Assembly (NCBI GenBank): GCA_031213475.1
Contig: JARUPZ010000019.1
Span: 1,848,940-1,912,939, forward strand
Length of the DNA: 64,000 nt
Source of the DNA: Nereocystis luetkeana
Lineage: Eukaryota > Sar > Phaeophyceae > Laminariales > Laminariaceae
Direction: 5' to 3'
Position numbers and translations under genes: made by a program. Below, one piece after another: positions 10,760-63,959 of the stretch (position 1 is the first letter of the stretch; each line of letters starts with the position of its first letter). The notes under the pieces were generated by a model that was given only the letters and a program-made list of their open reading frames with translations, ran no database searches and had not been told where the DNA came from.

Positions 10760-12210
10760 CCCGGGATGGTTCGCGGGGGGGCGATGCAGCAATCGTCGAC
10801 TATCTTCAACATGAGTTCTCCCCTGACAACCCCAAAGAGGTCGATAAACGATTGGTTAGATCGAGCTTCTTAAACGTTACTGTCGTCGCTGTACCTGGGA
10901 TCAAAAAGACGAACAATAAAACGGAACGAGATATCAGCCATGTATTCGACGCTACGGTTGGAGCACGCTGTAGAAGACAAAGCGAACAATGTTATACAAT
11001 GCCTGATTGAATCTGGTCAACTCAGGCAGAGGGTTATAACTTGATACAATCGTATCGTACGCAACAGTGGCCGTCAACCACTGCATCGAGAAAGCGGCGA
11101 AATCCCCCTCAGAGATAAAAGGTACGCGTTATGTGTCCCAAGCACACCTCTTGGCTGTTCGCCAACCCGCGGCTGCCAGGGAGCAAACACTAAATCGCGA
11201 CTGGTCGTAGCCTCGAATAGCGCAATCAGACGCGCAATTCAGTCAGATTTCAAACCTACAGTAGTATACGAAATGTAATTGCTGCAGAAAATTATGGTTT
11301 TCGAGACTAGCTTCGCTACGGGTGATGACAGCACATGTGATATAGTAAAGTTTCAAGTTTTAGGGGCTGTGAGGAGGGATGGTGCAGAGGGGGGCTGACA
11401 CCTGCCACAGCAATGGACGTTAGCTAAAACGGCCCGCCAAATCGAAGTCGGAATACAGCACGGCATTTCACAGCAGCTAGGAGTCGGGGCGCTCGCGAAT
11501 AATGATCTCCGGACGTGAAAGGAGGCCACGTGCCTAGGCGCGGTCGTGTTGTATCACCACGCACCACGCACAGAACGGCCTCGAGAGCTCTTGGGCGCCT
11601 GTCGTAGTTTCCTGTAACTCATATAATAGCAGATGGCATTTGACTGGGAACATCATCCCGCTCTTGTGGGATCCCATGGGGTATATGGGATATATGGAGC
11701 AGCTTGCCGGTATTTAATGATGAGGTCATTGAGTAGTAGAAAGGGCGGGTGAATGTGGGGACAACATCAACAACAGCGCCATCTTTGAGTGGCATACAGA
11801 AGTTTATTGTTCATGTTGCTAATACAATAATTTCGTCGACATTCTCTCCAGGTCTCCGGCCCGTACGAAAGTCTTGTGTCCTCGATAATCATATGCAGTG
11901 GTTCTACGGACAGCGCTGGCTTACGAACGCATCGTGCGGCGGCACAAACGAAATACGTGCACTCAGCCGCACAAGCTCGACGATGCTCAAATCTCGAGAC
12001 CGACCGCATTCACCGGTAAGGCGCAGAGTGGATTAAATCAAAATCAGCGGGGCGGTGGCGGTGGTAGTCGTGCGAAGCTTGTCCTTGGGCCTCATATTCA
12101 GACCACGGCACATGGCCCCCACGTCAATGATGCGGGGCCGAACCGCATTAACTGCTTTCGTAAAACGCGTACCAGGTATGTGCGTGGTGTAAGTAATAAA
12201 AAATAACAAA
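10760..12210. other. No recognisable gene
   Basis: I find no exon with coherent splice sites or a domain. Scattered TACCTGGTA-type motifs begin to appear near 12166. Confidence 0.45.
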
Positions 12211-12213
12211 CAT

Positions 12214-12247
12214 CAGCTGTGAGATAGAGGATTTCGTCGAAACTCAT
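12214..12247 (-). repeat. Conserved 34-bp segment reading MSFDEILYLTA (copy 1)
   Basis: The minus strand reads ATGAGTTTCGACGAAATC followed by CTCTATCTCACAGCTG. It matches 22022-22056 and 23795-23830 far better than the flanking sequence does. The reading frame M-S-F-D-E-I-x-x-L-T-A is kept in all three. Confidence 0.8.
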
Positions 12248-12249
12248 CT

Positions 12250-13085
12250 ACCAGGTTCTGCTGGTACATCGTGTGCCTCGGAGACGGCAAATAATGAATG
12301 TCTTAAATTAGTTTTAGCTAATTCATCTCACACCACAGTAGTAACTTGAGTCAGTAAAACATATCGTCTCCAAAAAACAATTTTTAAAATATTCCACATT
12401 TTATAGCTCAAGCATCGTCTCCTTTTATAGATATGTTATACCTGGTACCTCTTGCAGCTTTGAGCGATGTGTTTCCGCTGTGCAGTGCACTGTTACTGCA
12501 GTGCGCAACAGAAAGCGGGCACTCTGAACGCCAGCGAACCATCATGATATGTGTGTTGTCTTCACATGAAATCGTCATTTCTACCCAACTGCCTGGTACG
12601 TCAGTACACCCAGTGTCCGTCCGAATTGCTTATCTTAAGAGATACCTGGTACCAGATATCTGGTCACAGACTGTGATACAGAAAAAACAATAACAACAAT
12701 AATCGCAAACGAACGGGCAAATCAAGTAAAATGCCAACGTACAGGGTACGAAGACCCAACAACACAAGCCTGACCAGAAAAAAAAAGAACAAAAGCAGAA
12801 TAAAACGAAAATAATGATAAAATAAAACAGAATACAGGTGACGCAAGAAGATCAGAAAGGCTGCCAGAAGAAAAGCGTACGTGCTCAAGACATAAATTAC
12901 AAAAAAATATCAACTTGGCGAATGAAGGCATACAAATAGTAGTGGATACCGGCACAAGGTGTCCTTATAATGTTACAGCTAGAATGCACCTAGTCTACGA
13001 GTACATAAAAATGGGAAAAAATAGGAAAAACATTATACGAGTATAACAAAGTGCACCCCTACGCCGGCGTGGTCTGTCGTGGTAG
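12250..13085. other. Low-complexity A/T-rich intergenic stretch
   Basis: Long A-rich tracts produce artificial Phe/Leu-rich frames on the minus strand near 12664-12955. TACCTGGTA-type motifs occur near 12437 and 12643. I see no gene. Confidence 0.5.
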
Positions 13086-13091
13086 GGCTTG

Positions 13092-13322
13092 GGGGGGGGG
13101 GCGGGGGCGGGGGGGGGGGGGGGTGTACTCGATAGGAGAGATGTACTCGATCTCATGCATGGCCGTAGTCGTATGACCAGGGGGGGGGGGATACCCGATA
13201 TCATGCATGGCCGTAGTCGTATGACCATAAACCCGCGCGTTCCTACAACGCCGGGACGGAGCACGTCGGGTTTTCATCGACCAGGCAGACATTGCGTGCT
13301 CCAAGCGCGAAGCGCCGTGAGG
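13092..13322 (+). repeat. G-run repeat family, near-full copy with an internal duplication
   Basis: A G homopolymer is followed by TGTACTCGATAGGAGAG, TCATGCATGGCCGTAGTCGT, ATGACCATA and a tail with CGGGACGGAGCACGTCGGG and AGGCAGACATTG, ending near GCGCCGTGAGGTGT. The CATGCATGGCC segment is duplicated, with a second G run between the copies. Related copies in both orientations lie at about 35500, 37100-37316, 40138-40240, 50180-50240, 50500-50650, 58240-58512, 60780-61905 and 62676-62865. Confidence 0.88.
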
Positions 13323-13397
13323 TGTATGGTGGGGTGCGGTTCGAAAAGAAAAATCGGGGCAAAAACAATCATCGTACGTACCTGGTACTGTACACCG

Positions 13398-13734
13398 TTT
13401 TTTTTTTTTTTTTTTTCATCCCATTCATTATCTTCGTACATCTTCTTCTCTCTCTCCTTCCAACTCGTAACTCAGATCCGGGGTCACATAGCAGGCTCTT
13501 CTCCCCCCTTCCCGCTACGGTACGTGCCTTCATTTTTATCGCGAGAAGATTTCAGCCTTTTCTTCCCTCGTCGACTCGCATCGAATTGTGCCTACCCACG
13601 CTGCAAGGCGCTCTCAACAATTGGATCCTTTTTTATTTTTGCAAATAAAGTCAAAGTCCGACCCACCTGGGGCTCGAACCCAGGACTCAAACAAGTAGAA
13701 TTCGAGGTTAACCACTTGAACCACCGGGGCGACC
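13398..13734 (-). mobile_element. tRNA-derived SINE, family 1 (copy 1)
   Basis: On the minus strand the head is GGTCGCCCCGGTGGTTCAAG (an A-box-like region), followed by a B-box, GGGTTCGAGCCCC. A unique body follows and ends in a poly-A tail, which appears as poly-T at 13398-13416 on the + strand. This is the standard structure of a polymerase III-driven SINE, which would use the machinery of a LINE for movement. The copy at 26677-27009 is nearly identical. A diverged + strand copy lies at 21174-21644. Confidence 0.92.
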
Positions 13735-13989
13735 GGCACCGTGTACGATATTGGCGATCGAGTTGATACTGTGAGAATAGCAACAGCAGTTCGGGGCTAC
13801 GTCTCTTTTTCCTCTCGTATAGAGTACTGGTAAGCTAGTCCGGGGGGGGGGGTACATTGTAGTAATCAGGATATGATTGGTTCTTGGGTCCATCGCGGGT
13901 TCTGATTACAACACTAGCCCCCCCGGTACAATGACGAAGGCAAGCAACAATATGAGCAACCCCTCCCCGAGGTATATTGGTAACTTTGA

Positions 13990-14098
13990 TATTACGGGGG
14001 ACCATAGTTAATAGGACCAAATATTGTTAGTAAAAATGGTTAAATATTTAGGTTTTTATGTATACCATAGGTCCTATTAACTATGGTCCCCCGTAATA
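13990..14098. mobile_element. TA-type MITE, family TTACGGGGG (copy 2)
   Basis: An intact copy with flanking TA and ends TTACGGGGGACCATAGT and its complement. Internal sequence matches copies at 63514 and 62281. Confidence 0.94.
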
Positions 14099-14439
14099 GC
14101 AAGAAACAGGGAAGCTGGCCCAGCCGGGATTTCATGTTGTGGGAACGAGGTGCTCTAAACCAGTACTGACTTCCGAGATAACGGCGCCGCGGTCTCGTAT
14201 TTCCGTAGTTCGCTGTAAACTTCAACCTGGCTGTCTCAGTGCTCCATTTCGTCGGCGTCCTGTACTATGATTAAATAACAATGTTGTTATGCTGCACTGC
14301 GCGCACTGCTCGTACTACGGTGGACTATGATATGCTCATGCGAAGTACCAGGTATACATGTATCTGGTGTAAACATAATACTACCAGGTACGAGGTATGT
14401 TGCAAAGTTCGTCAGCGTCTGAGTCCGATTGATCGAGGT

Positions 14440-15175
14440 TCAGTCGATGACTCGCGAGACCGTGTCCTTCTGAAGTACAGAGTCCCCATAGTACCAACAG
14501 CTGAAATAGCTGATTCCTCGCGAGTCCCCAGGATACCAGTAGCTGGAATGACTGAGTCCTCGCGAGTCCCCAGGGTACCAGAAGCTGGAATGGCCGAGTC
14601 CTCGCGATTCCCCAGGGTACCAGAAGCTGATTAGACTGAGTCCTCGCGAGTCCCCTGGGAACCAGAAGCTGAAATAACCGAGTGCTCGCGAGTCCCTAGG
14701 ATACCAAAAGCTGAAATGGCTGCGTCCTCGCGAGTCCAAAGGGTACCAAACGCTCAAATGACTTGAGTCATCGTGAGTACCGAACCAACGGGCAAAACGA
14801 AAATAACACACATGCACACGGTTTTCGTGTATTTCGTTCGCTCTTCAAAAACAAAGTGCGAAAGGTCGTCAGAGTAGCAGTACCAGTCTGTTCGGGACTC
14901 AATCATTGACTCTCTCGAGTTTGAGGCATTTTGAAGTACTAAGTCTCCAGGGAATGAGAAGCCGAAATAATGACGAAATGACTGAGTCCTCGCGAGTCCC
15001 CAGGGTACTGAAAACTGAAAGCTGGAGTGGCTGAGTCCTCGCGAGCCCCTACGAGAGCACTGAAGGCTGAGATGACAGAGCCCGCGCAAGGTCCTAGGAT
15101 ACTGAAAGCTAAAATGACTGAGTCCTCGCGAGTCGCTGGGGTACTGAAAGCTGAAATGACTCGTACTCGGAGGTA
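14440..15175. repeat. Minisatellite of about 42-44 bp in two blocks
   Basis: Units carry GAGTCCTCGCGAGTCCC followed by AGGGTACCAGAAGCTG and AAATGRCT. Six to seven units fill about 14500-14770 and about four fill 14975-15175. About 200 bp of non-repeat sequence lies between. Open frames on both strands here (VPEAGMAESSR-type and FWYPGDSRGL-type peptides) are translations of the array. Confidence 0.9.
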
Positions 15176-15179: not shown

Positions 15180-16550
15180 TCAGGGTTAGTTCTGATAACC
15201 TTCGCTGCGTATGTCGTCCTGCTTTACTGCAGGTGGTCCTTCGGTCCTCATAAGCAGTAAGAACAAGCCTGTTACGAATGAGTAGAATCTGAAAGGTTTG
15301 CAGTTTTCAGCCGTTCGCTCTGAAAAAAAACTGTACCGCCAACTATGTAAATACCTGGTATACCTTAAGGAATTATATTACGAGGTAGAGAATTATATAC
15401 CTGGTATATAGCAAGCAACCTAGCCTAGAGCAACCATGGGCAGGACATCAACCCTACGGGTACAACGGCATCATATTCTGCAAGTACGCATACTGGATAG
15501 GCTCTGTCGTCTCTCTCTCTACTTTCAGTCAGCCGCGTCGTCGTATCTATACATAAAAAAGGTTTGGCAAAGATGTGCCTACCCGTACTACAGCCAGTAT
15601 CACACTGGTATTAATAGTTAGTTCCGTTAGTATCGTATTTGCGAGGAAGTAGGTCGTATTATACGAGTATATGCATGTATAACAGGTGCGTATACTATTA
15701 ATACTATAATAACGCAAAGGTGATGTATGTGCTGCTGTATATATAGCGTAGTACGAGCGTCCTACGAGTACTATTAATACTGTATCGTTTTGGGGCCAAA
15801 CCACTTGCAATTAGAGTGCTCAAACTAGTTGTAATAGCAGCTACAGTACCTATAGAGACTGCTGTAGTTTCAAAGTGAAAGGGTAACACTAAAGCAACAG
15901 CTCAGTGCAATTTCGAACTCGCGCACAGTAACACAGCAGTAGAAGAAGAAGTAGTCGGCAGGAGTGCGTGCTATTAAATAGTACTTGGGAGTAAAATGCG
16001 GGTGTGCTCACTTTGTAAACGCTACCGGTGCACTACTGGCCTTGATTGCTCGGTTCCAACCTCGTGAGACGTGAGAAGACACGAAGTCGAGAGGAAAAAC
16101 AAGTCAGAAGAATAAGTACGTACAGCTGCCCAACCAGCACGTATAAAACACAGCACTCACTGCCGCCAGCTCTGCGTATAAAACAATCATTCGCATATAC
16201 TACGATATAACAAGAAGTGTACAAAAAACGCACACTCAGACACATCACCAAACAACCTCGCCCCAAAACAAGCGTGCCAAAGTACTGGTACGTGCATATC
16301 AGGTTTAGTATACAGCAGTAGTAGCTCTTGTTTCGGTGGCAACATCAACCACTGCGCTCGCGTGCAGAGCGTACATAACCAGGTACCTGGTACGTACCTT
16401 GACGTACCTGGTACATACACACCTGGTACAGAGTATACTCACGGTAGAGCATACCAACATTTATATCATCATCGTAGACAGCATGAGGATACAACACCAG
16501 CAGTAGCTACTGTTGGTAGTAGTTCTATTGCCACAAGCATGACAATGAGC
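15180..16550. other. Motif-rich non-coding stretch
   Basis: This stretch holds many TA-flanked short motifs (TACCTGGTA, TATTAATA, TACGAGTA, CAGCAGTA). A fragment resembling the TTAA-type MITE centre (TTTGGGGCCAAACCACTT) lies near 15790-15825. No exon is recognised. Confidence 0.5.
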
Positions 16551-17084: not shown

Positions 17085-18900
17085 GACATGCACGAGAAGT
17101 TTGCCGAGAACGGGGTGCCAGGACTTGGAAGCGGGCGAAAAGGCGATTTCTCACTAAAACTCAGTAAAAATATATAGAAAAAATTGCCGAATTAAATCGC
17201 GGGTCGGCCCGTTCGTGACGACGTCATACTCATGAGCTCCTCATTAACCGGCACCCTGCGGCACCCGGTAATAAATACCACCGTAGAATCACAAGCAGAA
17301 TAACATATATATTTATCAACAAGTACCAACAGCAGTGGTAGTAGTACTGCTGTAGTACGACCCTGCTGAGTTGCTGCTGCCTGCTGCTGCCTGCTGCTGC
17401 CTGCTGCTTATTTGGGCCGATGGCTGCCGTGGTTCGTCTCCCTGTTCGGTTCCCTGGGTGTGGTTCCCACGCAATTAATTGTTCATCTTTTTAGGCACAC
17501 ACTCATGATGACTCGTTTTCATACACTCTTGTTTGTTGTTGTATTACGTACCTGGTAATAAATACAACAGTCTCAGTGTAAAGTATAGTTATTCTCACGA
17601 CAGCAGCGTACAGCAGTAGTAGTAGAAGTTGTTGTAGTTCTCACATTACCACATACTACATGCAGTTCGTGGTCACAGGACAGGCTCCAATACTACTCTG
17701 GAATGCCTTGGTACGTATACTAGTAATATACTACTCTACTACTGATTGATGCTGTACTACTACTACTACTGATGATGATGGGGCTCTACCACTTGCTGCT
17801 GTACACACTATAAAGCAACTCCTACTACTGCTGCAGTGCTGCTGATGATGATGTTTGCTGTTTGTTACACGTATATGATAAACGTACCTGCCACAAGTAG
17901 GTACCTGGTACGTTTTACGACTGCTTTGTATTGTGAGTTAATGTGAGAACAACAACAACAACAACAACAACAACAAACGCACTTTATTACCACTAATACT
18001 ACTACTACTGTTACTACAGTACCAACCAGTCAGTACTATCTACACAGCAGCACGCAGCCTACAGCACCCGGCGGTCGCGGGCGGTACCTGCCCTGTATGA
18101 CATATTGCAAGCTTGCTGCGTCGCGTGGCTGTGGAAGTTATCTATCTATATATAGAATGCCTCGATGCGTCGGCAAGCAGAGAGGTACCAGTACATTACA
18201 GCAGAACAAACAGACGTTTTTGTTCGCAGTTTGTTTCTGAACGTTCGTGTTGTTGTGGTGTCGTGAATCAGATGTTTCCAGACCACCTATGATATGATAC
18301 GACATCTCGTACAGTAGCAGCTGTGGTCTGCCTGCGCAGTAGAACTTGCCAGACAGACCACCATCTCCCTCCCCCTGTGTGGTCTGCGGATGCTTCACAT
18401 TTCATACACACGCCGGATGCATGAGCTAATTACAGTGCCCAGGTACGGCATACATACGCCCAGCTACGACGACGCACCCCCCCAATTTGATGTGATTCCA
18501 CGGGTTGGTTTTTCTGCAGCAAGCTCTACGATTAGTAAAACGAGCTTGGCGTGTGACACTCTGGCCTGTATACGTACAAGTACAAGCTACGGGTAACGGC
18601 GTTAGGCCCCACCGAGAAACCGAGAGGATCCACCGACGACATGATCGTATTCGTACGAGTACACGTTGTCGGTGAACAGCAGCAACAAGGGGCGACGGTT
18701 TCGGCCCTAGTTGTTCTGCCACCTGTCATCAACCAATCACAGTAAAGGGCTTAAAGGTCGGGCCAAAAACTGACAGTCCCGAGCAAAAAGGTGTTACAAG
18801 ACTTCGTTCTTAGACGCGTCAAGGCCTATTTTTACCGTATTGTGCTGTTTTTAAAATCGTACATCGGTCAGTCAAGGGCGTCAAATCGCGGTCTCCAAGC
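17085..18900. other. Triplet-rich (CTG/CAG/TAC) non-coding stretch
   Basis: Short interrupted CTGCTG, CTACTA and AACAAC arrays are frequent, for example at 17360-17410, 17755-17790 and 17950-17975. TACCTGGTA motifs occur near 17550 and 17900. A 36-bp segment at 17920-17955 recurs at 58294-58329. No exon is recognised. Confidence 0.5.
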
Positions 18901-19099: not shown

Positions 19100-20500
19100 G
19101 AGTTCAAGGTTGTTGTGCTTTTCGTTTTGCGAGGGTATACGTGCAGTCAGTAGTTTAGTCCACCACTCACCACCACGCAGCAGAGTGCTACTGCGATATA
19201 CCAGGTGTTGCTGCAGCTGCTGCTGCTCCTACAGCTTGCTGGGTTCGCTTGCACTGTACGTACGTAGCGTGCCTGTCTGCAATACGCGAGCCCACAGCAG
19301 AGCCTGGAGACATAACAGCAGCAAACAGAACAGCAGCACGTAGACTCTCGTACCTCCTACCAGTACAACCGGTAGCCCTCGTACGTATAATACGGTACTG
19401 CTTGTATTTCCGTACCAGGTTTTATTACGACTGCAATCTCCTCTTGGGGACAAATCACTCAAGTTTTAGTAAAGTAGTTTATCCCCAAAACGGCACTGCT
19501 TGCAACAGGAGTACCAGGTACCTGGTACGGAACAGGTAACAGGTTACTCGCATACTACGGAGGAGTGCATCGTACACGGTAAATGGTCCTGGTAAATGGT
19601 AACCAAGTTGGTTCCCCGTCCTGGGCTTGCACGAAAGGCAGGAGAGCGGAGTGAAGGCTTGCACGAAAGGCAGGAGAGCGGAGTGAAGAGATACGATACG
19701 TAAGGGTAATCATGTACCTGGTCAGCTGGTGTGTAGGACGAAGAGCTGAGACTGCATTTGGTCTACTCGTACTCATACAAGTATTCCGTTACGTAGAGTT
19801 ATATTCTGCACTATATACATATTGAGACTTTGAGACAGCTGCATACCAAGTACCAAGTACCTCGTTACCTGGTGCCTGTCATGTGTCATGAGCTGTAGAG
19901 TCTAACCATGAGCTGTACGTAGAGTCTAAAGTCTACCAGGTACAGAACAGCAGTCGTAGTGAAAGTCTATGAAACGAAGCTGCAGCTGCTGTAGAGCTAC
20001 TCGTATAGAAAATGCTCGAACGTACGTAGACTATCAATAATTCTCCAGACTCTTAAGAGTACCTGGTACCAGTATAATATTTGCGGGCGTACTACTTGTA
20101 TACCTAGGTACCAGTATACGATTACAGACTACCGACCAGTAGATATTTATGTGCCAGGCGTAGGTGTTACCAGCCACCACGAACGCGAACACGAAGTACA
20201 CATCTTAGTTTTAGAGTCTAAAGTGTAGTCATATCGGGGCTGCTGCTGCTGCTGCTGCTGCTGCTGCAGCTGTACATCGTTGTGCTGCTGTCGGCAGTAG
20301 TAGTGGTAAAGCTATAATACTCTGTACACTGGGCCATCACTCACAGATCGCATACTTGTACATAGATACCAGGTATCACATACCGGCATCATAAAGTTAC
20401 CAGGAGACCAGGGGAGCAGCATAGCACTCTGAACGAAAACAAAATCAAGCAGGACGAACTATTAATAGTACATACATGCTGCTGTCCCGTTTTTTTTTTG
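19100..20500. other. Motif-rich non-coding stretch
   Basis: Dense TACCAGGTA/TACCTGGTA motifs lie here, including stacked copies near 19510 and 20060. A fragment of the TTAA-type MITE (GGGGACAAATCACTCAAG ... ATCCCCAAAACGGCACTGC) lies at about 19443-19497. CTG arrays occur near 20240-20270. An exact short duplication (GCTTGCACGAAAGGCAGGAG) lies at about 19626-19685. Confidence 0.55.
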
Positions 20501-20504: not shown

Positions 20505-20552
20505 TATACCATAGGTCCTACCAGGTATTAACTATGGTCCCCCGTAATATTA
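20505..20552. mobile_element. TA-type MITE fragment carrying a TACCAGGTA insertion
   Basis: Only the right third of the TTACGGGGG family is left (GTATACCATAGGTCCT ... CTATGGTCCCCCGTAATA). Relative to other copies it reads GGTCC-TA-[CCAGG-TA]-TTAAC, a 7-bp insertion that duplicates TA. Confidence 0.85.
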
Positions 20553-20634
20553 CGAACACAAAGAAGGAAAAGTTTACATTCTGGTCGAAACAAAAAAAGT
20601 GTACCAGGTACCAGGTACCTAATATCTGCGTACT

Positions 20635-20731: not shown

Positions 20732-21089
20732 AATCTAGCCATTACAACCCAGTACGAGTATTAATAGGTACCTTCGAAATAACACCGGGGAGGGGTTGTT
20801 GTCCATACACCTGGTACACATATTTATAATCAAAGATCAACAGCTGTTTGATCGAGGACTTCGTTGAGATTCATCTTCAGCCTTTGCAAGCTGTGCCTGG
20901 TGCTTCGGTCGCGCGTACTATCAACACGAGTTTTACATGGCCAGGGTGTGCAGTCCATATACCTGGTATGAGGGAGACAAAATCTGAAGCTACATAATTC
21001 AAGGAGTGGGTGTGTCTGTATATTCGGAAATCAATAAATAACTAGAAAAATGTCCGGAGGTTGCACGTAACTTGCCACAAGTGAAAAAT

Positions 21090-21644: not shown

Positions 21645-22021
21645 CGTCGTGTATCATGCATACCCCTGGGAAATACAATGAAAGACATGCCTCGTAATTA
21701 TAAAAACAACACTAATACTCGTACCAGGTACTCGTACGAGTACCAGGTACTGGTATGAAATATGGTGCACACCGGAAAAAATCCCCGCTCGTGGCAAACT
21801 ATTAGTAGGTGCGACATGCATCTGGAAATTGTTTCAATTACTATCCAAAATAGAGGCGCACACTCCTTGAATTCTGCAGCAGCGTCAGATTTTGTGTTCC
21901 TCATGTATTACGGGATGTACATGGTATATCCTGCCTGCACGAGGCCATACGAAACATGAAACCCGTCGTAGCGCAGGTGTGTAGTTCGTACGCGCGATCG
22001 ATTATCGCAACAGCTTGCAGA

Positions 22022-22056: not shown

Positions 22057-23794
22057 TGTTAATAGTCTGTTGTTTTGTTTTTTTAAAATATGATATACCA
22101 TGCCGTAGTATATGCATAGTCCACGAGTACAGCAGTAACTGTTGTCCTTGTCTACTCGAAATATCACCATTTACTGCTGTGGTCATCAGCGTACATGCTC
22201 GTGTACCTGGTACCGGGTATCATACATGCTGTGCATATACCTGGGCTGTTGTGTCGCTGCTATATCATACCTGGTATCACCGGTGGGCATCATTCGTGTT
22301 ACAGTTGGGGTTTTTTTTACTCGCTGTTTTGTTTCGCGCCAGAAGCCTCGGTCTTGCGACCAGCCTTGTCTTGTGTCACCACGAACTTCTACTGCTGTAT
22401 GCATGTATGTACATCATGGAGATGAGTTACTGCTGTGAGAACAACAAAATCAACTATAGCGACCGAGATACCTTCGAGCCAGCAAGAATGTATGTAACCT
22501 GTAAGCTTCCTCCTACTGCTGCCGTGTCTCCGATTCCTCCCGCAAACTCTTCTGAGACGCTTCTTGCTGCAACCAACGCTGATTTGAACGGCAGGCATAG
22601 CAAACAAACTATCAATAACTGCGTGGCAGAGTAGTCAGTGCGGTATTAATATAATAGTTGTGGTAGAGCAGTGAGCAGGGAATGGAACCTTCGGCCTTGA
22701 AGTTTTTGTTTTCTTCGTCCGATGCGAATTTTCGAGAGCACCATCTACTACTGCCGCGTGCATAATACAAGTTCCTTGTGGCTGCACCAGGCGCGGACGG
22801 GACACATACCAGGTACCAGGTATCAGGTACCTGGTACCTGGTATGTTTTTTGTTTTTTCGACAAGGGCAACTTGATGTGAATCCCGCGCCGCTTGTACGA
22901 GGCATGCATGTAAAAAGGAGAGAAGATAAGGAAGTGCATGAACCGCTGTGCGTATATGATATCTATTGTAGTATAATCGTATGTACGGGAATATACATGC
23001 CCGAGTATACATACTCGTAAAATGATCTTCGTTCAACGATCGCGCTGACATATATACCGCTGTGCGCAATTCCGGGACAGGATGATGATCGGCAGGACAT
23101 CGTTTTTTTCTCTTCTTCTACTTCGATTCGGATTTTTCGTCCTTATCCATCGCGGCAGAAACAACAAGCAACACAAAACGTACCCACAAGCTACACGACA
23201 ACTGTAAAAACGGGCACCATTTCAATTCAACCATTTCTTGGGTGACAAAGAAAAGTTTCCGGCGCCAGCCAAAAATTAAGAGATGCCGATTTGATCGACG
23301 ACTTCACCCAACTTTACTATTAATAGCTTGGACCCGAAAATGTTCCCATTGACTTTGGAGAATTAGAATGCATCTATATAGTTACAAACTGATTGGCAGG
23401 CGGGGCTATGTTTTACGCCCCGCTTTTTTGCTATTAATAGGAAGAAACCCATTTTGATCAACAACAGCTTTAAATCACGAGATAAAGAGGGAGAAAAAAT
23501 CGAACCAGCCTTCCAAATATACACGAGTTCGTATGTGATACATGTTCCGAAGCCGATGTCAGATTTAAATTTCAGAAATATATATTTTCGGGTCCGTTCT
23601 GGTTGTAGCACCGATCACTGCGGAGGTTAAAAGTTTCGTAAACCCTGGCACTATACAGCAGTATATACCAGCCATGGGAACCACCGAGCACTAACCTTCA
23701 TACATAAAGATCAAGTACAAACCGTGGAGCCTTCATGAGGTTCATATACAACCCGAAACAACGCGCTTATCGAAGTAATACGCACAGCTTGCAA

Positions 23795-25299: not shown

Positions 25300-26330
25300 C
25301 AAAACGTTTTTGGAGCCTTCTCCATCCCTCTAAACACACGGTCACGCCACACAGCCACACAGCAGCAGCCTCAACACCTCTCCGATGTTGGGTTGACTGC
25401 TGCTGCTCTACTACTGCTCTACTGCTGCTCTTGCTGCTGCTCAGAGCGCAGCACCTCCTCCTAGAACCCGCGAGCAAGACACGGAACAGTTTTCAGAACA
25501 CTAATGTCGCCTGCAACACTCCAAAAAGCACAAAAGCTACAAATTCGATCCAACTGGCGATAAGGAAAGCATCCAGACACAAACCGACCTTTTCGATCCT
25601 TCCAATTCGATGGTATAAGAGTTAGCCGGAGCAGATGCTTTCAAAATATTTTTACATCGAAAAATACTTGAAAGATACTATTAATGAACATAATCTGAAT
25701 CGCGACATCGAACCGCATAGGAAACAACCTTCGGTGTGGGATAATTGATATTTATACTCGTATTGAAGCAGTGAGGTTTGACTTTGGGGTTTTTTTTTCA
25801 GAGGGCAAACCTGACGGTATAACGTGACGACTACTCATACAGAAACAACGACCGGCCACCGCGTGACTGGGAGACAGTATTGCGCAAGGTGTGTGTCCGA
25901 GTTACGATGCAAGGAGGCGCGTATACAGCACGACACGGGCGCGGCATGATCCGATCCTACGCCGTACTGCTGGGCGCTCTCACTCTGAGTGCTGCTGACA
26001 CGGTTGATAAGTCCCAAAAAAGTTACCGTTGCCGTGATCGCTACCTCGGGGTCCAAGCTTCCGCTACCGTGTCATCCTACCTCGGGAGTGGACCGGTGGT
26101 GTTTGCACGCACAGGTATAACGCCGGTGCCTGTTCCAGTCGGACGCTCAGCACTTACCTTGTACCGGCTGGTTGTCTACAGCAGTCAGATTTGCGTCGGC
26201 AAGCTACGTAAACAACTACTGGTACGCACCACGACCGATATTGAGATGGTTGGTATCGCAGATCGATATAAATGGGATACGAGTACTCGTTGCATAACAT
26301 GTATGTACCTGGTATGTACTCGTATCGCAT
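25300..26330. other. No supported gene
   Basis: CTG/CAG-rich sequence near 25360-25450 is followed by A/T-rich sequence. A 183-codon + frame at 25880-26431 has no domain and runs into a MITE, so it is not called. Confidence 0.45.
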
Positions 26331-31099: not shown

Positions 31100-32415
31100 A
31101 TATGTACGAGAGTCGGTCAGTCGACTCTCCGGCCGATGCCGTACGACGAACGGCGCTGTTGCCGTCGCAAGTGGTGTCACTATGGGGGTATACTATATAA
31201 GGAGCGTTTGGTCGTTATCGTGAATACGAAGCGGTCATTATATTCACGATCAGAGAGGTATCTCGGTAAAAAAAAAATACCAACCAGCCTGTCTGTGTGA
31301 AAAGGCTACAGGTGTATACAGGCTAACAAACACGGGTATTATGTACTGCTGCCTGATACAGACAATGGATGGGGGTACAGGTATACGTACGACAACGTGA
31401 TACCAGGTACCTTGGGGCCTGGTATGCCTTCGCTGCTACAACTGGTGCTGCTGCTGCTTGCTGTGCTGCTGCTTGCTGTGCTGCATGCATGCATGCATGC
31501 ATGCCAACTATCGATCGGTGTGTTGATGCAACTGTTACTCATGACTCGTGTGGCAAGAGTTTTGAGGGAATTTTCGATCTCATACGTAGCCGAGGTGCGT
31601 GTGTGTTTTGTGTGAGTGGATGTTTTTTTCGTTTTTTTTTTTCTCTTGTGGTCATACACCTGCGTATAACGTCCGCGGTCGGTCGGGGCGGGTCTGTCTG
31701 CGGTCTGCGGGGTGTTGTGCAATGAATAGGTTGCTTGCTGATGCTGTACGGCAGTGGGAAGTTGTGCATATTTGATTGAAAAAAACAGCTCGTGAACAGG
31801 GGCTTCGGGAACAAACCTTTCCTCGCGTACAGGTATATTTTTGTACGAGTGTACATCAAGCGGTACCCTATTCATAGCCAGTGTTTGTGTTGGCATTCAC
31901 CGGGCGGGTTTTGTTCGGTGATATGGCCACGGTTGATGCGATGTGTCGACAAGAAGGACCAAAGAGCAGGGGGGGGGGGGCGTCTCTGAGGGGACTCAAC
32001 GCCCAACACCCTTCGCAAGGTCGGTCGGCGTTGTATTATATCCGCTTACTGTCTGTTGAGATCCTTCGAACAAGTTCCTACTGCTGTAGTCTGATTCCAA
32101 GTAGCTCCCCCCCCCCCCCAAAAAAAAAAATACCAGGGCTTTTCGTACCCATATATTCACACGTTCTGGCTTGTGTTGCGGTGTTCTCGTACCCGGTACG
32201 TTGGCCCGCTCTACCTCGATTCATTTTGCGATTGTCTGATTTGGTTGTCTCTGTGTCACAGCAGTCTGTGATCCCATTATTAATAGTCGTATCTCTCCAT
32301 CTAGGACAAAGGAGCAGGACGGGTGTGCTGATGTGATTGGGTAGAGGGAACGGCTCAATGTGAAGACAACGCTCACTGCGAGAAGTTGGACACCTGGGAC
32401 GGACAATGGGTTCTG
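31100..32415. other. No supported gene
   Basis: Holds a GCTGCTG array and GCATGCATGCATGC near 31440-31500, plus short G and C runs near 31970 and 32108. Frames on both strands lack domains. Confidence 0.45.
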
Positions 32416-33669: not shown

Positions 33670-35663
33670 GAGTGTGTCCCCACAAAGGGTCGAGTCAGGA
33701 GGAGCGTCAGAAAAAATATATACCAGGTACCTGGTACGGGCCCATCTTAACGGGGAACGCTCTTTGGAAATAAAAATTTAATTTCAATGAATTTTAATTT
33801 GATTTCGAAAAAAACGTGTTTGTGTCCTATCGGGGAACAGCGTACTAGCTGTCAATCGAAAAATAATTCCGGAAGAACGCGCCGCGTCGCACAACGCCCA
33901 GCCGACAAACAGCGACTCGGGTAGACGAGAGCGAAGGTTTGCGCTGCCGCGTGCGCGCCGCCGCCAGCCTCTTTTTCTTTTTGATCGCGCAGGATAGAAA
34001 GCTATCACTCTCAGGGTGTCTTGGGTGGTGGGGGCGGAGGAAGCCCTCAAGCGCCACGTGCGGAACAGCAGCGGCGATGCAGCTATCGAGCGTATCCTCC
34101 GTATTTTTGCTCGTTTGCTCGGTTTTCGCGATTGTTGGCCGATCGAGCAGGCCGAAAAAATGGGATTGCGGCCGCCATGACTACTTTTGAGGCGCCACCG
34201 CCGGGGTACGATGTGCTATGGTGTGTGGGCGTGGGCGCGGCTGTAGCTCCGGTCACCTTTCGTTGAGGTTCCCGTTTTATCGCCTCGATTGTGGTCACCG
34301 AAGCGGCCAAGAATCGCCCCAGACTCCACCGAGGGTGTTGACCCACCATGAACATGCTACGTCAAGACCGAGGAACTCCCAAATTCCAAATTTGAAATTA
34401 AAAAAATCGAAAAGAGTTCCAAAAGACTTTTCATTCAAATTCAATTTTTCTAATTTGCCTGCTTGGTCGTTCACTCTTCGACCAATCAGGTGCAAATTAA
34501 ATTAGAGAAAAAAAAACAAGAAAATCAAATCGAAAAAAATAAAAATCCCCGTTAAGATGGGCCCTAAGTCATACACCGTCCTATCGTGGCGTGCCTCCGA
34601 AAATGATGTAGCCCCTGCAAACGATGTAGCCCCCTTTTCTACTGTTTTTTATCGGGTCTGTGAGTCGACTGTTCGTCCTGGCTACCGGTAATTGTTTTGT
34701 TAGTAACTGGGTGGGGTGGCGAACGCCGGCCAAACTATTTTGACGGGAGACCATCGCGAATAGGGCCTACGGTACTCACAAAAACCTACCGGGTACTGTA
34801 TTTACCGGTTTTCACTGACGATATTTGGCCCTGTTTACTGTGGCCCCCCGTAATACCAGGCTCTCGTTGATTGCCGTAGTGTGTTGGTGCCATTTGGGCT
34901 GCATTGTCTATGCTTGTGTTGTGTATGTACAGTACGCGCGAGGAGAGTTACGAAAGAAAACGCCCAACGAACGGCCGCCTTCGGCAACTGCCACCGGCAC
35001 CGGCACCGGGTCGGCGGCGAGGGGTTGTGATGTGCCGCGACTTGCGGCAGACCTCTCCTGTTGAACTCTCTCTCTCTCTCTCTCCCTCTCTGTCCCTCTC
35101 TCTGAGCGAGTGCTCTCACCGATGAAAAAAAAAAAAAGGCACCACAGACCCCGTACGTACGTGGCAAAGAAGTCTTCCATGAACAAGGAAAACCAAACAG
35201 TCAAATGGTTGGCGCCCTTGCAAATTGCAGTATACATACCCCACAAACAGTAGTACTAACTGTAACTATTACTTGTCTGGCGACGTTTGAGGAATCCGAA
35301 TTCACAGATCTACTGTTGTAGCAAAAATGAATCCTAGATTACGTTTCACTCTGTACCTAAATATAACGAGCGTCTGTACTTGATGTTAGCATGTAAATGT
35401 TCCCTACAGTATGTTTCGGGACAGGGGGGTACGAACTCAATTCCAACTGCTGCTGTGTATAGGTTGTTCGCCAGAAAAAAAAAAAAGTGCCATGCATGAG
35501 ATCGAGTACATGTCTCCTTTCGAGTACACCCCCCCCCCCCCCCCCCCTCCCGCCTCCCCCTTTTCACCCTTGCGAAAGCTATCCCAGCAGTCCTTTGTTC
35601 CGACAGTAACGGTATACCTGGTACTTCGTATACGTACAATCCCACGCCTTGTGCAAATCCCAG
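33670..35663. other. Region upstream of the first recognised oxygenase exon
   Basis: The missing 5' exon(s), start codon and promoter of the JMJD4-like gene probably lie here or further upstream. GC-rich unique sequence at 33850-34300 is the best promoter/5'-UTR candidate. It holds GCCGCCATGACTACTTTTGA at about 34171 and an ATG at 34077 that opens a 38-codon frame with a hydrophobic core (SSVFLLVCSVFAIVG). Neither could be joined by splice phase to 35664. The region also has a CT-rich tract (35065-35105) and a G-run repeat fragment at about 35490-35548. Confidence 0.35.
34733..34857. mobile_element. TA-type MITE, diverged copy with CCGGG-type insertion
   Basis: The ends are degenerate (TATTTTGACGGGAGACCAT and CTGTGGCCCCCCGTAATA). 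The interior reads AACC-TA-CCGGG-TA instead of AACC-TA, so a TA-flanked core has been added at the site that also carries one in the copy at 57828. Confidence 0.78.
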
Positions 35664-53088
<17,425 letters not shown>

Positions 53089-54364: not shown

Positions 54365-54475
54365 CAGGTGTTACGGGAGACCGCAGTAATCAGGACCCAA
54401 GGTGCTTCGTGAAAATACTGAAATATACCTGGTATGGGGTTTTGTTCACATGAAGGGTCCTAATTACTACATATT
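54365..54475. mobile_element. Strongly diverged TA-type MITE with TACCTGGTA insertion
   Basis: GTTACGGGAGACCGCAGTAA and GGGTCCTAATTACTACAT are degenerate family ends. The middle has ATATACCTGGTATGGGG, another TA-CCTGG-TA core. Confidence 0.55.
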
Positions 54476-55830: not shown

Positions 55831-56310
55831 GTAGAAAGAAGAACACAGCAGTGTACCGCAATCGCTCCCGTCGAAAGAGGGCAAGGTCAGCTTATAATGT
55901 TTTGCCTTGTTTGTGCTGTGAAGCCTCTATTGGCAGTATATACGGAGGGGGGGGGAAGCCCTTTGAAGCGAACGGTACTCTACACCACGATGATATCAGG
56001 CAGGGTCCTGGGAGGTATCACGATGAATCATAGCTTCTTCGTATTAAAGCTTTCAAGCAACGGAACTCCACCTCCTCGGCAGCAGTGCCTACAACACGAG
56101 TCCGAGCAGCGTCCTTCACACCTACCTCTTGTACGAATGGTTCATCTCTCCCGAAAAGCGGCAGTCTACGCATGCATGCATGCATGCATGTCTCTGAAGT
56201 CCCCTGGGATCACACCGCCTACATACAAGACAGACCTATTATCTAGTATACCTATTATCTATTATACCTGTGCCCTGAAATATCTACCAGGTATACGATC
56301 ATGAAGGAGG
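55831..56310. other. No supported gene
   Basis: An open frame of 169 codons (55795-56304, +) starts inside a MITE relic, crosses GCATGCATGCATGCATG and has no domain, so it is not called. Confidence 0.45.
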
Positions 56311-56315: not shown

Positions 56316-56656
56316 GGCCCATTCTTGTCAGAGAGCTTTTGTTCTAGAATTTCCCAAGTAGTTTGGAAATATTTGGACTTCTTACAAGGCACATTGTTAT
56401 CGAAAAGATTTTTCTCCACATTTTCCAAAGTTCGGAAACAATAATAGGAGATATATATGTGAGATACGGAGGCGTTCTGCCACTGTTTGTGCACTTACTT
56501 ACTTCTCCAGAAGCAAAAAAACAGGAAAGTTAAATTTCACATATATATATAGATGTCTGGAAAAAAAATCAGGAAAGTTTGGAAGATTAAAAAATTGCGC
56601 GAAAAAAACATACCTGGTAGAAATTATGGGACGAAAGCTCTCCGATAAGAATGACC
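56316..56656. mobile_element. MITE, family TCATTCTTATCGGAGAGC (copy 2)
   Basis: The left end GGCCCATTCTTGTCAGAGAG and right end GCTCTCCGATAAGAATGACC enclose an A-rich interior like that of copy 1, longer by about 95 bp. A TACCTGGTA core sits at about 56608. A third, partial copy of the interior follows at about 56660-56845 (ATACGGAGGCGTTCTGTCC, GTGAAATTCTTCAGAAGCA). Confidence 0.83.
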
Positions 56657-57827: not shown

Positions 57828-57953
57828 TATTACGGGGGACCATAGTTAATAGGACCAGTGGTATACATAAAACCTACCAGGTACTGGTATGTGTTTAACC
57901 ATTTCTACTATTAATAACAATGTTTGGTCCTATTAACTGTGGTCCCCGTAATA
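57828..57953. mobile_element. TA-type MITE (copy 8) with two TA-core insertions
   Basis: The ends are TA-TTACGGGGGACCATAG and CTGTGGTCCCCGTAA-TA. Compared with other copies, AACC-TA is expanded by CCAGG-TA-CTGG-TA, and TTCTAC-TA is expanded by TTAA-TA before ACAAT. Confidence 0.93.
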
Positions 57954-58514: not shown

Positions 58515-59125
58515 GATATTTCTATTTCTACAGGATGCATGGTGTCCCAAGTTTAAAATGGTTGAAGGCAAGGGATCGCACGGCACCGGCGCAACGTGAT
58601 CCCACACCCACACTTCTGGGCTCTGGCTCTGGCGCTGTCTGTGCTCGTAGACGGTTTGCACCACTGTTTTGATACCAAGGTTGCCGTTGTTTTAAATAGT
58701 CGCTAAATATATTATACCAGGTATATATATATATATATATATCCGTTGAAACAGGGGGGTCCCAAAAGGGCTATATACCCGTGACAGGGTGCTCGGCAGG
58801 TTTGTGCTCTCTGCGAACGCGTCACGTGGGCGGACAGGGCAGGCAACAACAGCATCCAATGCTGCGCACGAGACAAAAAGGATTGACAGGTACATAATGA
58901 CGTTTTCTTCGACGCCGCCATGTACGCACGAAAAACGCTCTCATCTTGTGGCTCGCTTGTCCTCCCACCACCCGCCCCCCCCCCAAAATAAGTTTTTATT
59001 AAAAAAAAAAAAAACTGTACGTACGGCGCCTCGATAACAGAAGGTCGTTTCATTCCTGCCATCATGCCACCCTTAACCAATAACTGAAAAAAAAAAAAAA
59101 AACAGCAAAAAGCGCGGGATGGATA
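58513..59125. other. No supported gene
   Basis: A TA microsatellite lies at 58715-58742 and poly-A/T runs near 59000 and 59085. It lies downstream of the minus-strand gene and may include its 3' UTR. Confidence 0.45.
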
Positions 59126-59777: not shown

Positions 59778-59879
59778 CTGCGACGATGTGGGACGCAAAT
59801 ACAACGGTAAAACACGCACGAGTCATGATTTTCGGGAGGCGGGATCTAATGCCGTCACAATAAAATACACAACAAAGTA

Positions 59880-60275: not shown

Positions 60276-60517
60276 CAGAGACGATTTTCTCCAAGCCCTG
60301 CCCGAAGGGCCCAATAGGGCGCACACGGCGAAGATGGTGGCTTTGGGGAGAGAGACATATCGTCGAGACATATTTTGCCGTAGTATGTGCGCTCCCCCCC
60401 CTCCCGATGTCGAGAGAGAGAGAAAAAAAACGCCTTTGAAATCCATCCGTAAGGGTGTCTGTTATTTCGTCGCCCCTTGTGATACGGCAGAGCGCACGCA
60501 AAAGAGCGCGCGCGCGG

Positions 60518-61905
60518 GGGGGGGGGGGGGGGGGCGTACTCATTTGTTGCTTGCCTTAGTCATTTGACCATTGACCACGTATCCCTTTCGACACGGAGCA
60601 CCGTTCCTACTCCTAGTAGAGACACCTCCAACAATTGGGCGCTCATTACGTTGTTTCCATATATTACATAAAAACTTTTTGCTAATCTTATCCCCTTCCT
60701 GTTTGGCCGCCTGTGGCCACCATCTATCTCCTAGGATAGCGACCGTTTTCTCGTTGCCATCTAGTGTACCACACCAAACTCCTCCATGTCGCGGGGGGGG
60801 AGGGGGGGTTACTCGAAGGGAAAGATGTACTCGATATCCTTGCATGGCCGTATAGTCGTTTGACCATAGACCCTCGCGTCTCTACAATGCCGGGACGGAG
60901 CATGTCGGGTTTACACCGACCAGGCAGACATTGCTTGCACCAAGCGCGGAGCGCCGTGGGGGGAAGGGGGGGGGGGGGGGGGGGGGGGGGCGTACCCATT
61001 TGTTGCTTGCCTTAGTCATTTGACCATTGACCACGTATCCCTTTCGACACGGAGCACCGTTCCTACTCCTAGTAGAGACACCTCCAACAATTGGGCGCTC
61101 ATTACGTTGTTTCCATATATTACATAAAAACTTTTTGCTAATCTTTTCCCCTTCCTGTTTGGCCGCCTGTGGCCACCATCTATCTCCTAGGATAGCGACC
61201 GTTTTCTCGTTGCTATCTAGTGTACCACACCAAACTCCTCCATGTCGCGGGGGGGGAGGGGGGGTTCACTCGAAGGGAAATATGTACTCGATATCCTTGC
61301 ATGGCCGTATAGTCGTTTGACCATAGACCCCCGCGTCTCTACAATGCCGGGACGGAGCATGTCGGGTTTACACCGACCAGGCAGACATTGCTTGCACCAA
61401 GCGCGGAGCGCCGTGGGGGGAAGGGGGGGGGGGAGGGGGGGGGGGGGCGTACCCATTTGTTGCTTGCCTTAGTCATTTGACCATTGACCACGTATCCCTT
61501 TCGACACGGAGCACCGTTCCTACTCCTAGTAGAGACACCTCCAACAATTGGGCGCTCATTACGTTGTTTCCATATATTACATAGAAACTTTTTGCTAATC
61601 TTATCCCCTTCCTGTTTGGCCGCCTGTGGCCACCATCTATCTCCTAGGATAGCGATCGTTTTCTCGCTGCTATCTAGTGTACCAAACCAAACTCCTTCAT
61701 GTCGCGGAGGGGGGGGGGGGGGGGGGGAGGTACTCGAAGGGAAATATGTACTCGATCTCCTTGCATGGCCGTATAGTCGTTCGACCACAGACCCTCGCGT
61801 CCCTACAACGCCGGGACGGAGCATGTCGGCTTTTCACCAACCAGGCAGACATTGCTTGCACCAAGCGCGGAGCGCCGTGGGGGGGGGGGGGGGGGGGGGG
61901 GGTAT
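60518..61905 (+). repeat. Tandem triplication of a 457-bp unit containing a G-run repeat
   Basis: Units start at about 60535, 60991 and 61448 (CGTACYCATTTGTTGCTTGC). Each has CCACGTATCCCTTTCGACAC, AGTAGAGACACCTCCAACAA, GTTTGGCCGCCTGTGGCCAC, CTCCATGTCGCGGG, a short G run and TACTCGAAGGGAAAKATGTA. Each ends with the G-run family body and a long G run. Units differ by only a few substitutions. A reversed relative lies at 49982-50170. Confidence 0.96.
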
Positions 61906-62005
61906 TCAATAGGAGAGATGTGCTCGATCTCATGCATGGCCGTAACCGTGTGACCATATATAGCGAGTAGCGCGGGCGGGGGGGGGGGGGGGGGGGGGGG
62001 GGGTT
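61905..62005 (+). repeat. Truncated G-run repeat copy between two long G runs
   Basis: G run, TATTCAATAGGAGAGATG, TGCTCGATCTCATGCATGGC, CGTAACCGTGTGACCATA, then a further G run of about 27 ending near 62003. Confidence 0.9.
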
Positions 62006-62187
62006 GGGCAAGGGCAAGGGCGACAAGGGACTGTCAAAAACGGTCTTATGAACATGACCGTGCGTGCGAGTATCGACTTTTTACGCCGCGCCCAAAACTC
62101 ACAAGACAAGAAAGTGTGCGTATGTACGCACCCCTTTCGAGCTGGCCGAAGCCGGTTATTTTCGCTAATCGCCGACCGAGATTCATC

Positions 62188-62405
62188 TATTTACGTGGGA
62201 CCTTAGTAAATAGGACCAAACAATGTCAGTGAAAAAAAGGTACATATGCAGGTTTTGCGTGTACAGTAGGTCCTGTTTACTATTACGGGGGGCCATAGTT
62301 AACAGGACCAAATTTTGTTAGTAAAAATGGTTAAATATATAGTTTTTTATGTATACCATAGGTCCTGTTAACTATGGCCCCCCGTAATATGGCCCGCCGT
62401 AATAT
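62188..62405. mobile_element. TA-type MITE nested inside an older copy of the same family
   Basis: The outer, diverged copy (TA-TTTACGTGGGACCTTAG ... TTTACTA | TGGCCCGCCGTAATA) is split at its internal TA by an intact inner copy at 62281-62389. The inner copy starts TATTACGGGGGGCCATAG and ends CTATGGCCCCCCGTAATA. Confidence 0.95.
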
Positions 62406-62675
62406 ATGCCATGCCACTCTTCTCCCGGGAATGTAAAGGGACACGTCTCACCTTCAAAAAAATAAAAAAAATAAAAAAAAACACGCACTCCTTCTACATA
62501 TTTTGGAATGGATTTGGTGCGATTCTCCCGAACGACCAACAAAAGCAGATACAGCTATCTATCTATCTACACGGTAGGTAGCCTGCTTGCGCCAGTGAGT
62601 GGTTTCTTGGGGGCAGTTTTACTACCTGTAAATGCCGCACAACGCCTGTGGCAGGGCGCCGGCGGAGGCGAACCG

Positions 62676-62865
62676 GGGGGGGGGGGGGGGGGGGGGGGCG
62701 GGGTGTACTCATGGCACGCATGGCCGGCCGTACGACTAGTCGTTTGCTACGTATGACCATACACTCTCGCTTTCCTACAAATGCCGGGAGGGAGCACGCC
62801 GGGGATTCGCCGACCAGGCAGACATTGTTTGCGCCAAGCGGCGAAGCCCCGTCAGGTGCTTGGCG
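62676..62865 (+). repeat. G-run repeat family, diverged full-length copy
   Basis: A G run, GTGTACTCATGGCACGCATG, ACGTATGACCATACACTCTC and GCCGGGAGGGAGCACGCCGG, then GACCAGGCAGACATTG and GCGAAGCCCCGTCAGGTG. All blocks are in family order but with many substitutions. This is the oldest-looking copy. Confidence 0.85.
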
Positions 62866-62908
62866 AGTCGCACGAGGGGTGAGTTTGCATCCGAACTCGT
62901 CAACTCAC

Positions 62909-62973
62909 GCTTGCTCTAGCTCCTCGTACTGCTCCTTGTCTTCCTCCACGGCTTCCTCCTCCTGCTCCTCCTC
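62909..62973 (-). CDS. Upstream exon of the unknown minus-strand gene (Glu-rich)
   Basis: The minus-strand acceptor is TCATTTTGTCAG and the donor is a perfect GC|GTGAGT. The 65-nt exon encodes EEEQEEEAVEEDKEQYEELE then QA. The last codon is split after two bases, which fits the single leading G of the exon at 59777 (GC|G, Ala). Both splice sites are better than expected by chance, and the phases agree. The 3.1-kb intron between holds the 457-bp triplication, the palindromic minisatellite and MITEs. Further 5' exons beyond 62974 were not found. Confidence 0.6.
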
Positions 62974-63513
62974 CTGACAAAATGAGCGGGACGGAAGGGA
63001 GGACGAGCGCGCAAAGAAAGCACGAAGGAACGAAAGCAGCAGCACCAAGCGCGGATAAGGATGACAACAACCGAAAACGATCGATGCGGGAAACCTATGC
63101 ACGTACATATCGAGGGGGGGGGGGAACGAAAAACAAAAAACGCCTCGGACGGTACTGGTGGAGAGGCAAAAAAAGGCAAAGCGGCTTCAGGCTTCAAGCA
63201 GGGGGTGTGCGTTCGATGTCAAAAACGGGGAAACACACACAGACACACACATAGAACCCCGCCGCACCCAAAACACTACTACCGAAAAACCACAGCAGCC
63301 CGACGACGGCCGTGACACGAGGCAAGTCCCACACGCGCTAGCCCAAGCTCGTCCGCTTCTGTACACACCGAGCTTGCGGGAATCAGCCACGTACAGCTCT
63401 CGCAATCAGAACTAGAAAAAAAAATAAAAAAAAATGGACAAACGAACGAACGAACGAACGAACGTACACGTTGCAGACAAAACAGTACACAGCAGACAGA
63501 CGGGCCGACAGAC
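62974..63513. other. Presumed intron or upstream region of the minus-strand gene
   Basis: Contains short A-rich and CACA tracts and an AACG tetranucleotide array at about 63440-63465. I found no further exon. Confidence 0.4.
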
Positions 63514-63622
63514 TATTACGGGGGGCCATAGTTAACAGGACCAAATATTGTTAGTAAAAATGGTTAAACATATAGGTTCTTATGTATACCATAGGTCCTG
63601 TTAACTATGGTCCCCCGTAATA
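63514..63622. mobile_element. TA-type MITE (copy 10)
   Basis: An intact copy: TA-TTACGGGGGGCCATAGTT to AACTATGGTCCCCCGTAA-TA. Followed directly by TTAATA. Confidence 0.95.
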
Positions 63623-63959
63623 TTAATACTTAAATAGTGGAAGCAGCCTGCACGCACCCAGGTAAGCAGAAATCCCCCCCCCCTCCCAATATATAGGCAA
63701 GAAAACGGCCTCATAGGATTTTTTTAAAAAACGGGGGAAAAAAAACGGGGAAAAAAAACGAGACAAAAAAACAACCATATATGTAACCTGGTATCATTAG
63801 TACATCCAACGAAATAATAGGGTCGTCCTCGGGAGGCGACGAGAAAAAAAAAGAAACGCACGTGGTGGTTGGTGCTCGCTCGCGTCGCATGCAAGGAAAG
63901 GAGGAGAAATGAAGTTCGCGTATCTATAGTACACGGTGATACTTCCTTCGTGTTTATAC

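Follow-up and report, generated by a model that had tools for sequence, protein, structure and literature searches.

Introduction

Minos leaves the excision footprint TA-CGAG-TA or TA-CTCG-TA. For Sleeping Beauty and Frog Prince the footprint is C(A/T)GTA (PMC3878927), whereas Tc1/mariner footprints are described as 2-4 bp (PMC7913693) and those of Stowaway and Osmar as 1-4 bp of the inverted repeat beside the TA duplication (PMC1925063). For rice, 94 putative excisions have been described, 8 of them perfect (PMC4423477). In the present work we analyzed a 64,000-nucleotide stretch of the brown alga Nereocystis luetkeana (assembly GCA_031213475.1, contig JARUPZ010000019.1, positions 1,848,940 to 1,912,939; hereafter the window), in which the word TACCWGGTA (W = A or T) is strongly over-represented. 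We consider it likely, with good confidence, that this word is the excision footprint of one TA-targeting cut-and-paste DNA transposon family, and refer to it below as the CCWGG scar.

Minos resembles the CCWGG scar in having a core longer than 3 bases that is copied from the element end, but its letters are different, and the CGAG/CTCG words lack the target preference of CCWGG. The comparison with Sleeping Beauty that a preliminary description of the stretch had drawn proves apt in kind. The footprints of this element and of Frog Prince share with the CCWGG scar the TA target, the odd palindromic form with an A/T center and the addition of one TA; however, their core has 3 bases (CWG) and derives from 3-nt overhangs (PMC3878927), whereas the core here has 5 and the donor end would be CCAG(G). 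Stowaway and Osmar are similar in that their genomic scars are short end fragments between duplicated TAs, but they leave several variable scars per locus, while a single scar dominates here at 182,395 sites (PMC1925063). TA-transposon footprints with an A/T center are thus already known; a 5-base footprint core at such a scale was not met in the open-licence literature searched.

Results

The window contains 41 exact copies of TACCWGGTA; 100 shuffles that preserve dinucleotides hold 0.43 on average and never more than 3. Across the 465,085,209-base assembly the word occurs 182,395 times and its reversed-letter control 1,744 times. The over-representation claimed in the preliminary description is therefore borne out, and each of its 15 example coordinates lies within 5 bases of an exact copy; the span it gave, 12166..63795, encloses 40 of the 41 copies and misses one at 185. 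In a 200-kb sample, to which 20 contigs contributed 10 kb each, we counted 80 copies, a density that agrees with the genome-wide total. With TA at 5.45% of positions in this sample, about 0.7% of the genome's TA sites would bear a CCWGG scar. Among the 1,094 TA-N5-TA words in the window and the sample (264 kb), CCWGG accounts for 121, and the runner-up among the odd-palindromic ones, TAWTA, for 17, in keeping with the single dominant scar that had been proposed.

The window copies group into 36 runs, 31 single and 5 double, and head-to-tail pairs number 15,917 genome-wide, compared with 2 for the reversed control. Scars are crowded between 12,001 and 24,000, where 29 of the 41 copies fall within 12 kb; 4-kb bins hold 24 to 45 copies per 1,000 TA there and 0 to 18.5 in the rest of the window. 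This crowding may reflect local hopping or regional openness.

Paralog comparisons reveal the scar as an insertion at TA. For an empty-site test, the flanks of 116 scar runs were rejoined round a single TA and searched against the sampled DNA; this set, the flank sets of other TA-flanked words (among them CCAG/CTGG, n = 39, and CCGG, n = 27) and the 18 sampled doubles described below include L001-L004, loci chosen for double scars. A paralog across the join was found for 15 of the 116 runs, of which 6 are clean (window 20519, L022:2012, L013:4987, L020:7063, L023:4590 and L014:2281), 1 is nested (window 57875) and 8 are weak or differ at the join. Both window cases lie in copies of a miniature inverted-repeat transposable element (MITE), MITE-1, and read as the preliminary description had it: the insertion in the fragment that it placed at 20505 is clean, with TA or TG in most other copies, and the copy at 57828 holds a CCAGG scar followed by a nested CTGG scar.

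A second, scar-blind test started from 3,279 paralog alignments and gathered the gaps that were 3 to 16 bases long, which gave 210 distinct insertions. Here, as in the pairwise TACCW comparison below, L025 and L026 (contained in L035 and L036) and the viral loci L037-L045 were left out. The TA-x-TA form is found in 5 of the 14 seven-base insertions, and all 5 are CCWGG (3 CCTGG, 2 CCAGG), precisely the CCWGG plus TA that had been foreseen; a sixth, the scar at L013:4986, is also among the 14, its TA-x-TA form hidden by a shifted alignment. The form is also found in 7 of 25 six-base insertions (TTAA 2, CGAG/CTCG 3, CTGG 1, TGAA 1), where two of the three CGAG/CTCG cases are one place (L049:754/757), and in 9 of 21 five-base insertions (CAG/CTG 3, CCA 2, four others once each). 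A TA target with a 2-bp TA duplication, seen here as CCWGG plus TA inserted at a single TA, is a trait of Tc1/mariner.

The flanks of 106 scar runs were compared with TA sites lying no more than 500 bp away, drawn 2,000 times; L001-L004 were left out of this comparison, of the center counts and of the scar part of the flank analysis that also covered MITE-1 and TTAA. The base at +1 is not A in 0.976 of scars and 0.813 of nearby TAs (sd 0.027), TA stands at +6 in 0.255 versus 0.085 (sd 0.019), and the A+T fraction at +5 to +8 is 0.696 versus 0.556 (sd 0.017), with no difference at +9 to +12 (0.558 versus 0.544). The preference is symmetric and is not seen at nearby TAs. Genome-wide, A occupies +1 in 20,130 of 364,790 scar flanks (5.5%), compared with 19% after TAs of the sample. 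Preference for a structured site round TA, as judged here from flank composition at +1 and +5 to +8, is a Tc1/mariner trait, and bendable TA sites are favored by several Tc1/mariner elements (PMC3878927). The CGAG/CTCG, CWG and CCGG words (n = 27 for CCGG) do not share the preference. Since it includes a TA five bases off, which the scar itself supplies, further hits are expected at scars.

On the plus strand the scar center is T in 68 cases, A in 53, C in 2 and G in 2, which agrees with the A/T ambiguity first reported. When the 92 single scars in the window and L005-L024 are read so as to put A at the center, the outer base is G on the left in 21 and on the right in 9, and the choice between A and T may depend on the flank.

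Scars shorter by one base are unequal: CCAG/CTGG exceeds CCTG/CAGG by 35 to 7 in 264 kb, 14 to 4 in the window and 46,688 to 20,551 genome-wide. Words this short have a large background, and more weight is therefore placed on the sample and the flanks than on the genome-wide counts; the CCAG/CTGG scar has its target preference in common with CCWGG (n = 39). Random one-base loss from CCWGG would yield both forms equally, and the excess of CCAG/CTGG indicates that the donor end probably begins CCAG(G). The 3-nt stagger with CCW ends suggested in the preliminary description finds no support: two CCA overhangs could not pair with each other at any base, whereas overhangs of CCAG or CCAGG would anneal round one A:A mismatch, and we infer that an overhang of 4 or 5 nt is the better fit.

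The proposed course of events is as follows. The element would insert at TA and duplicate it. On exit, a staggered cut would leave each flank with a 3' overhang made of the final 4 or 5 bases of the element, CCAG or CCAGG, and the two overhangs would anneal by C:G pairs round an A:A mismatch; repair of the mismatch to A or T would then give TA-CCAGG-TA or TA-CCTGG-TA. The fresh TAs would be open to a second hit, giving rise to double scars.

MITE-1 served as a positive control. This abundant element ends TA-TTACGGGGGACCATAG, and its TA is preceded by T, then A or G, then C in 30, 41 and 30 of 46. The word TA-TTAA-TA, found 68 times against 3.1 expected in 310,747 bases, has upstream T in 64, A or G in 96 and C in 70 of 123. 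This matches the preference of MITE-1, and TA-TTAA-TA looks like its excision scar. Because the two share a preference, scars in this genome can retain the preference of their element. TA-TTAA-TA is present at window positions 20460, 23318, 23432 and 57909, among others, and was also met as a paralog insertion.

The DDE_3 profile (PF13358) at E 10 gave 30 matches, ten of which share an identical E-value and lie in open frames of 437-515 aa; the 0 matches at E 0.001 are a false negative of that threshold. L046 and L047, two of the copies, agree at 99.5% of 3,590 aligned columns. The complete element (L050 plus L046, C19:5054838-5059111) measures 4,274 bp including both TAs, and 27 of the 28 end bases of its MITE-1-like inverted repeats, TA-TTACGGAGGCTCATAATTAGTAGG, match. 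It has the TA flanks, inverted repeats and DDE_3 transposase (E 4.2e-12) of a Tc1/mariner element and, with its intact open frame, one of the ten equal-scoring matches, is apparently the autonomous partner of MITE-1. Residues 53, 186 and 308 of this frame are the first of the motifs MDES, LDNA and QPIE, respectively; the usual second spacing of DDE motifs is about 34, and the D-to-E spacing of this protein is far longer. TcMar-2_Ec32 of Ectocarpus (4.4 kb, with the 217-bp MITE TcMar-N1_Ec32) is a brown-alga Tc1/mariner element of similar size (PMC12477816). The main text of that source has no words beginning excision, footprint, scar or mite.

In the search for the CCWGG donor, 1,713 TACCW sites in 342,240 bases were compared pairwise. 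Of the 284 look-alike pairs, none is conspicuous as the end of an element: 92 are words internal to MITE-1, 91 fall within longer repeats, and we interpret the 101 boundary-like pairs as two scars, as longer repeats in shifted register or as chance likeness. Two inverted-repeat searches for TACC-ended elements, covering 40 of 79 pairs in one and 18 of 18 in the other, returned pairs of scars, pieces of MITE-1 and short elements of unrelated kinds. L003:964-1458 was considered as a CCAGGCA-ended element and rejected; it has no second copy in the sampled DNA, other TACCAGGC sites have unlike interiors, and its ends are read as decayed scars.

Among the DDE_3 relatives, ends were read in four copies, out of a set that has about 15 other places and 8 further L046-like copies. 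L051 and L052, read at their 3' ends only, form a decayed sister family of L046. L048:678-2474 occurs once and codes for an intact DDE_3 protein of 599 aa that shares 40% identity with the L046 protein; no inverted repeats were recognizable in 7 kb, and the locus is possibly domesticated. For a donor of the pogo group, the DDE_1 profile has 28 matches in the genome; 10 of these loci were read (about 3.5 kb each, two also at 10 kb), and no CCAG-ended inverted repeats were recognized in them. L035 and L036 carry pogo/jerky-like DDE_1 open frames without recognizable inverted repeats in 10 kb. The PF01359 profile, searched without a positive control, gave 0 matches.

Other TA-flanked words are also in excess in the same 310,747 bases. 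TA-CGAG-TA/TA-CTCG-TA occurs 70 times against 6.6 expected and is also met as paralog insertions; these words, present in the window at 1150, 21716, 21729, 21735 and elsewhere, are perhaps a further scar family like the Minos footprint. TA-CWG-TA (126 against 28) and TA-CAGCAG-TA/TA-CTGCTG-TA (44 against 0.4) may in some cases be CAG microsatellite.

The features of the window are collected in Table 1. The window also holds, at 38742-39961, a short tandem repeat of about 1 kb that is open in several frames on both strands. In the assembly, 1,710 candidates came up for the EsV-1-7 repeat (PF19114); 150 of them were scored and every one of these matched, which points to a brown alga as the probable host. 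Double scar matches in 9 viral contigs were judged, from the match alone, to be chance.

Table 1. Positions of probable CCWGG scars and of the MITE-1 copy in the window
Feature	Position	Strand	Basis
CCWGG scar	185..193	.	exact match; outside the span first described
CCWGG scar	12170..12178	.	exact match
CCWGG scar	12439..12447	.	exact match
CCWGG scar	12643..12651	.	exact match
CCWGG scar	13379..13387	.	exact match
Two CCWGG scars (14346, 14382)	14346..14390	.	exact match
Two CCWGG scars (15352, 15398)	15352..15406	.	exact match
Two CCWGG scars (16384, 16405)	16384..16413	.	exact match
CCWGG scar	17549..17557	.	exact match
CCWGG scar	17902..17910	.	exact match
Double scar, centers A then T	19512..19527	.	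exact match
CCWGG scar	19934..19942	.	exact match
CCWGG scar, then minor scar TACCAGTA at 20067	20060..20074	.	word match
CCWGG scar	20367..20375	.	exact match
CCWGG scar within MITE-1 fragment; TA or TG in most other copies	20519..20527	.	paralog comparison
Double scar, centers A, A	20602..20617	.	exact match
CCWGG scar	20960..20968	.	exact match
Two CCWGG scars (21722, 21741) amid CGAG/CTCG-type words, and TACTGGTA at 21748	21722..21755	.	
Two CCWGG scars (22204, 22268)	22204..22276	.	exact match
Two double scars (22807-22822, 22828-22843)	22807..22843	.	exact match
CCWGG scar	26306..26314	.	exact match
CCWGG scar	31401..31409	.	exact match
Double scar, centers A then T	33721..33736	.	exact match
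CCWGG scar	35615..35623	.	exact match
CCWGG scar, then minor scar TACTGGTA at 49137	49130..49144	.	word match
CCWGG scar	54426..54434	.	exact match
CCWGG scar	56285..56293	.	exact match
CCWGG scar	56611..56619	.	exact match
CCAGG scar and nested CTGG scar within MITE-1 copy	57875..57889	.	paralog comparison
CCWGG scar	58715..58723	.	exact match
MITE-1 copy hosting the 57875 scars and a TTAA scar at 57909	57828..57953	+	

Discussion

Several observations weigh against reading TACCWGGTA as an excision footprint. The CCWGG donor was not found in the roughly 342 kb sampled: elements with the CCW...WGG ends predicted in the preliminary description were not recognized there, the ends of the four copies that were read (L046, L047, L051 and L052, of two families) begin TTACGG, and the better-known of these families, that of L046, pairs with another scar, TTAA. 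The 2-4 base footprint of Tc1/mariner is not what is observed, the CCWGG scar having a main core of 5 bases and a minor one of 4; because the footprint length differs, and the ends and the gene are unseen, the donor is not assigned to Tc1/mariner. The reversed controls of the minor scars are high (CCAG 29,541, CCTG 8,021), indicating that background words swell the minor-scar counts, and the depletion of A at +1 is weaker genome-wide (5.5%) than in the sample (2.4%). In addition, the number of head-to-tail doubles exceeds about 12-fold what the mean scar rate per TA predicts, and the measured preference covers this excess only in part, by our estimate roughly a third, the rest being attributable to crowding or duplication. 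The center combinations of doubles are uneven, with 40 AA or TT, 14 AT and 5 TA among the first 59 listed.

The missing donor could also be explained if an enzyme resembling a nuclease or a transposase inserted the 7 bp directly into TA, with templated repair and without any element being excised, and 182,395 scars with no recognized donor are what that explanation would predict. However, the genome contains an ordinary element-to-scar link in MITE-1 and TTAA, with their common preference. A low-copy, often-leaving element would moreover be expected to escape a sample of 0.07%, so the absent donor is a gap rather than a contradiction; a low-copy active element would pile up scars without piling up copies. 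We therefore regard direct insertion as improbable.

The near identity of CCWGG to its own reverse complement would likewise be expected if palindromic elements had decayed in place and the scars were their two ends, brought together or much reduced by internal deletion. Such deletions would differ in length and leave bigger remnants, whereas one length dominates here, with a minor form one base shorter, which makes this origin distinctly less credible still.

Slippage of the TACCWGG heptamer, in the manner of a microsatellite, would account for the numerous doubles and for the AA/TT excess among those listed, but seems very improbable, because 98 of the 116 runs in the sampled DNA are single, A and T are mixed in doubles, and single scars are clean TA insertions whose flanks carry the target preference. 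The 18 sampled doubles comprise AA 7, AT 6, TT 4 and TA 1, and AT doubles make up 4,522 of the 15,917 genome-wide. The unequal combinations imply that duplication or biased repair probably accounts for some of the doubles.

Degenerate forms of the scar are frequent: the window has 35 one-mismatch forms (center apart), and in 264 kb single-substitution forms number 232 against 242 exact ones, in both-strand counts, where about 74 would be due to chance. Their transition bias suggests neutral decay, on the order of 8% per site. A conserved binding motif under selection, for which the crowding at 12-24 kb might speak, is the least credible explanation of all, given that the mismatched forms look like neutral decay and the scars are insertions in MITE copies that differ between paralogs.

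Within the excision-footprint interpretation, we tentatively propose a fuller history, which we hold to be plausible but somewhat short of probable: an unrecognized TA-targeting transposase lineage, with a 4- or 5-nt stagger and prone to end-joining exit, may have scarred about 0.7% of TAs and then all but vanished, leaving its history only in the scars.

Work on excision scars usually proceeds one locus at a time, whereas one type is available here at 182,395 sites, a number that suffices for statistics on target preference, repair outcome and decay from a single assembly. It also allows a test of the neutral idea that a low-copy jumper leaves far more scars than copies. Each scar adds 7 bases, which could mislead indel and repeat annotation in brown algae. 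Should the donor indeed cut with a stagger of 4 or 5 nt, TA-targeting transposases would span a wider range than is quoted for them.

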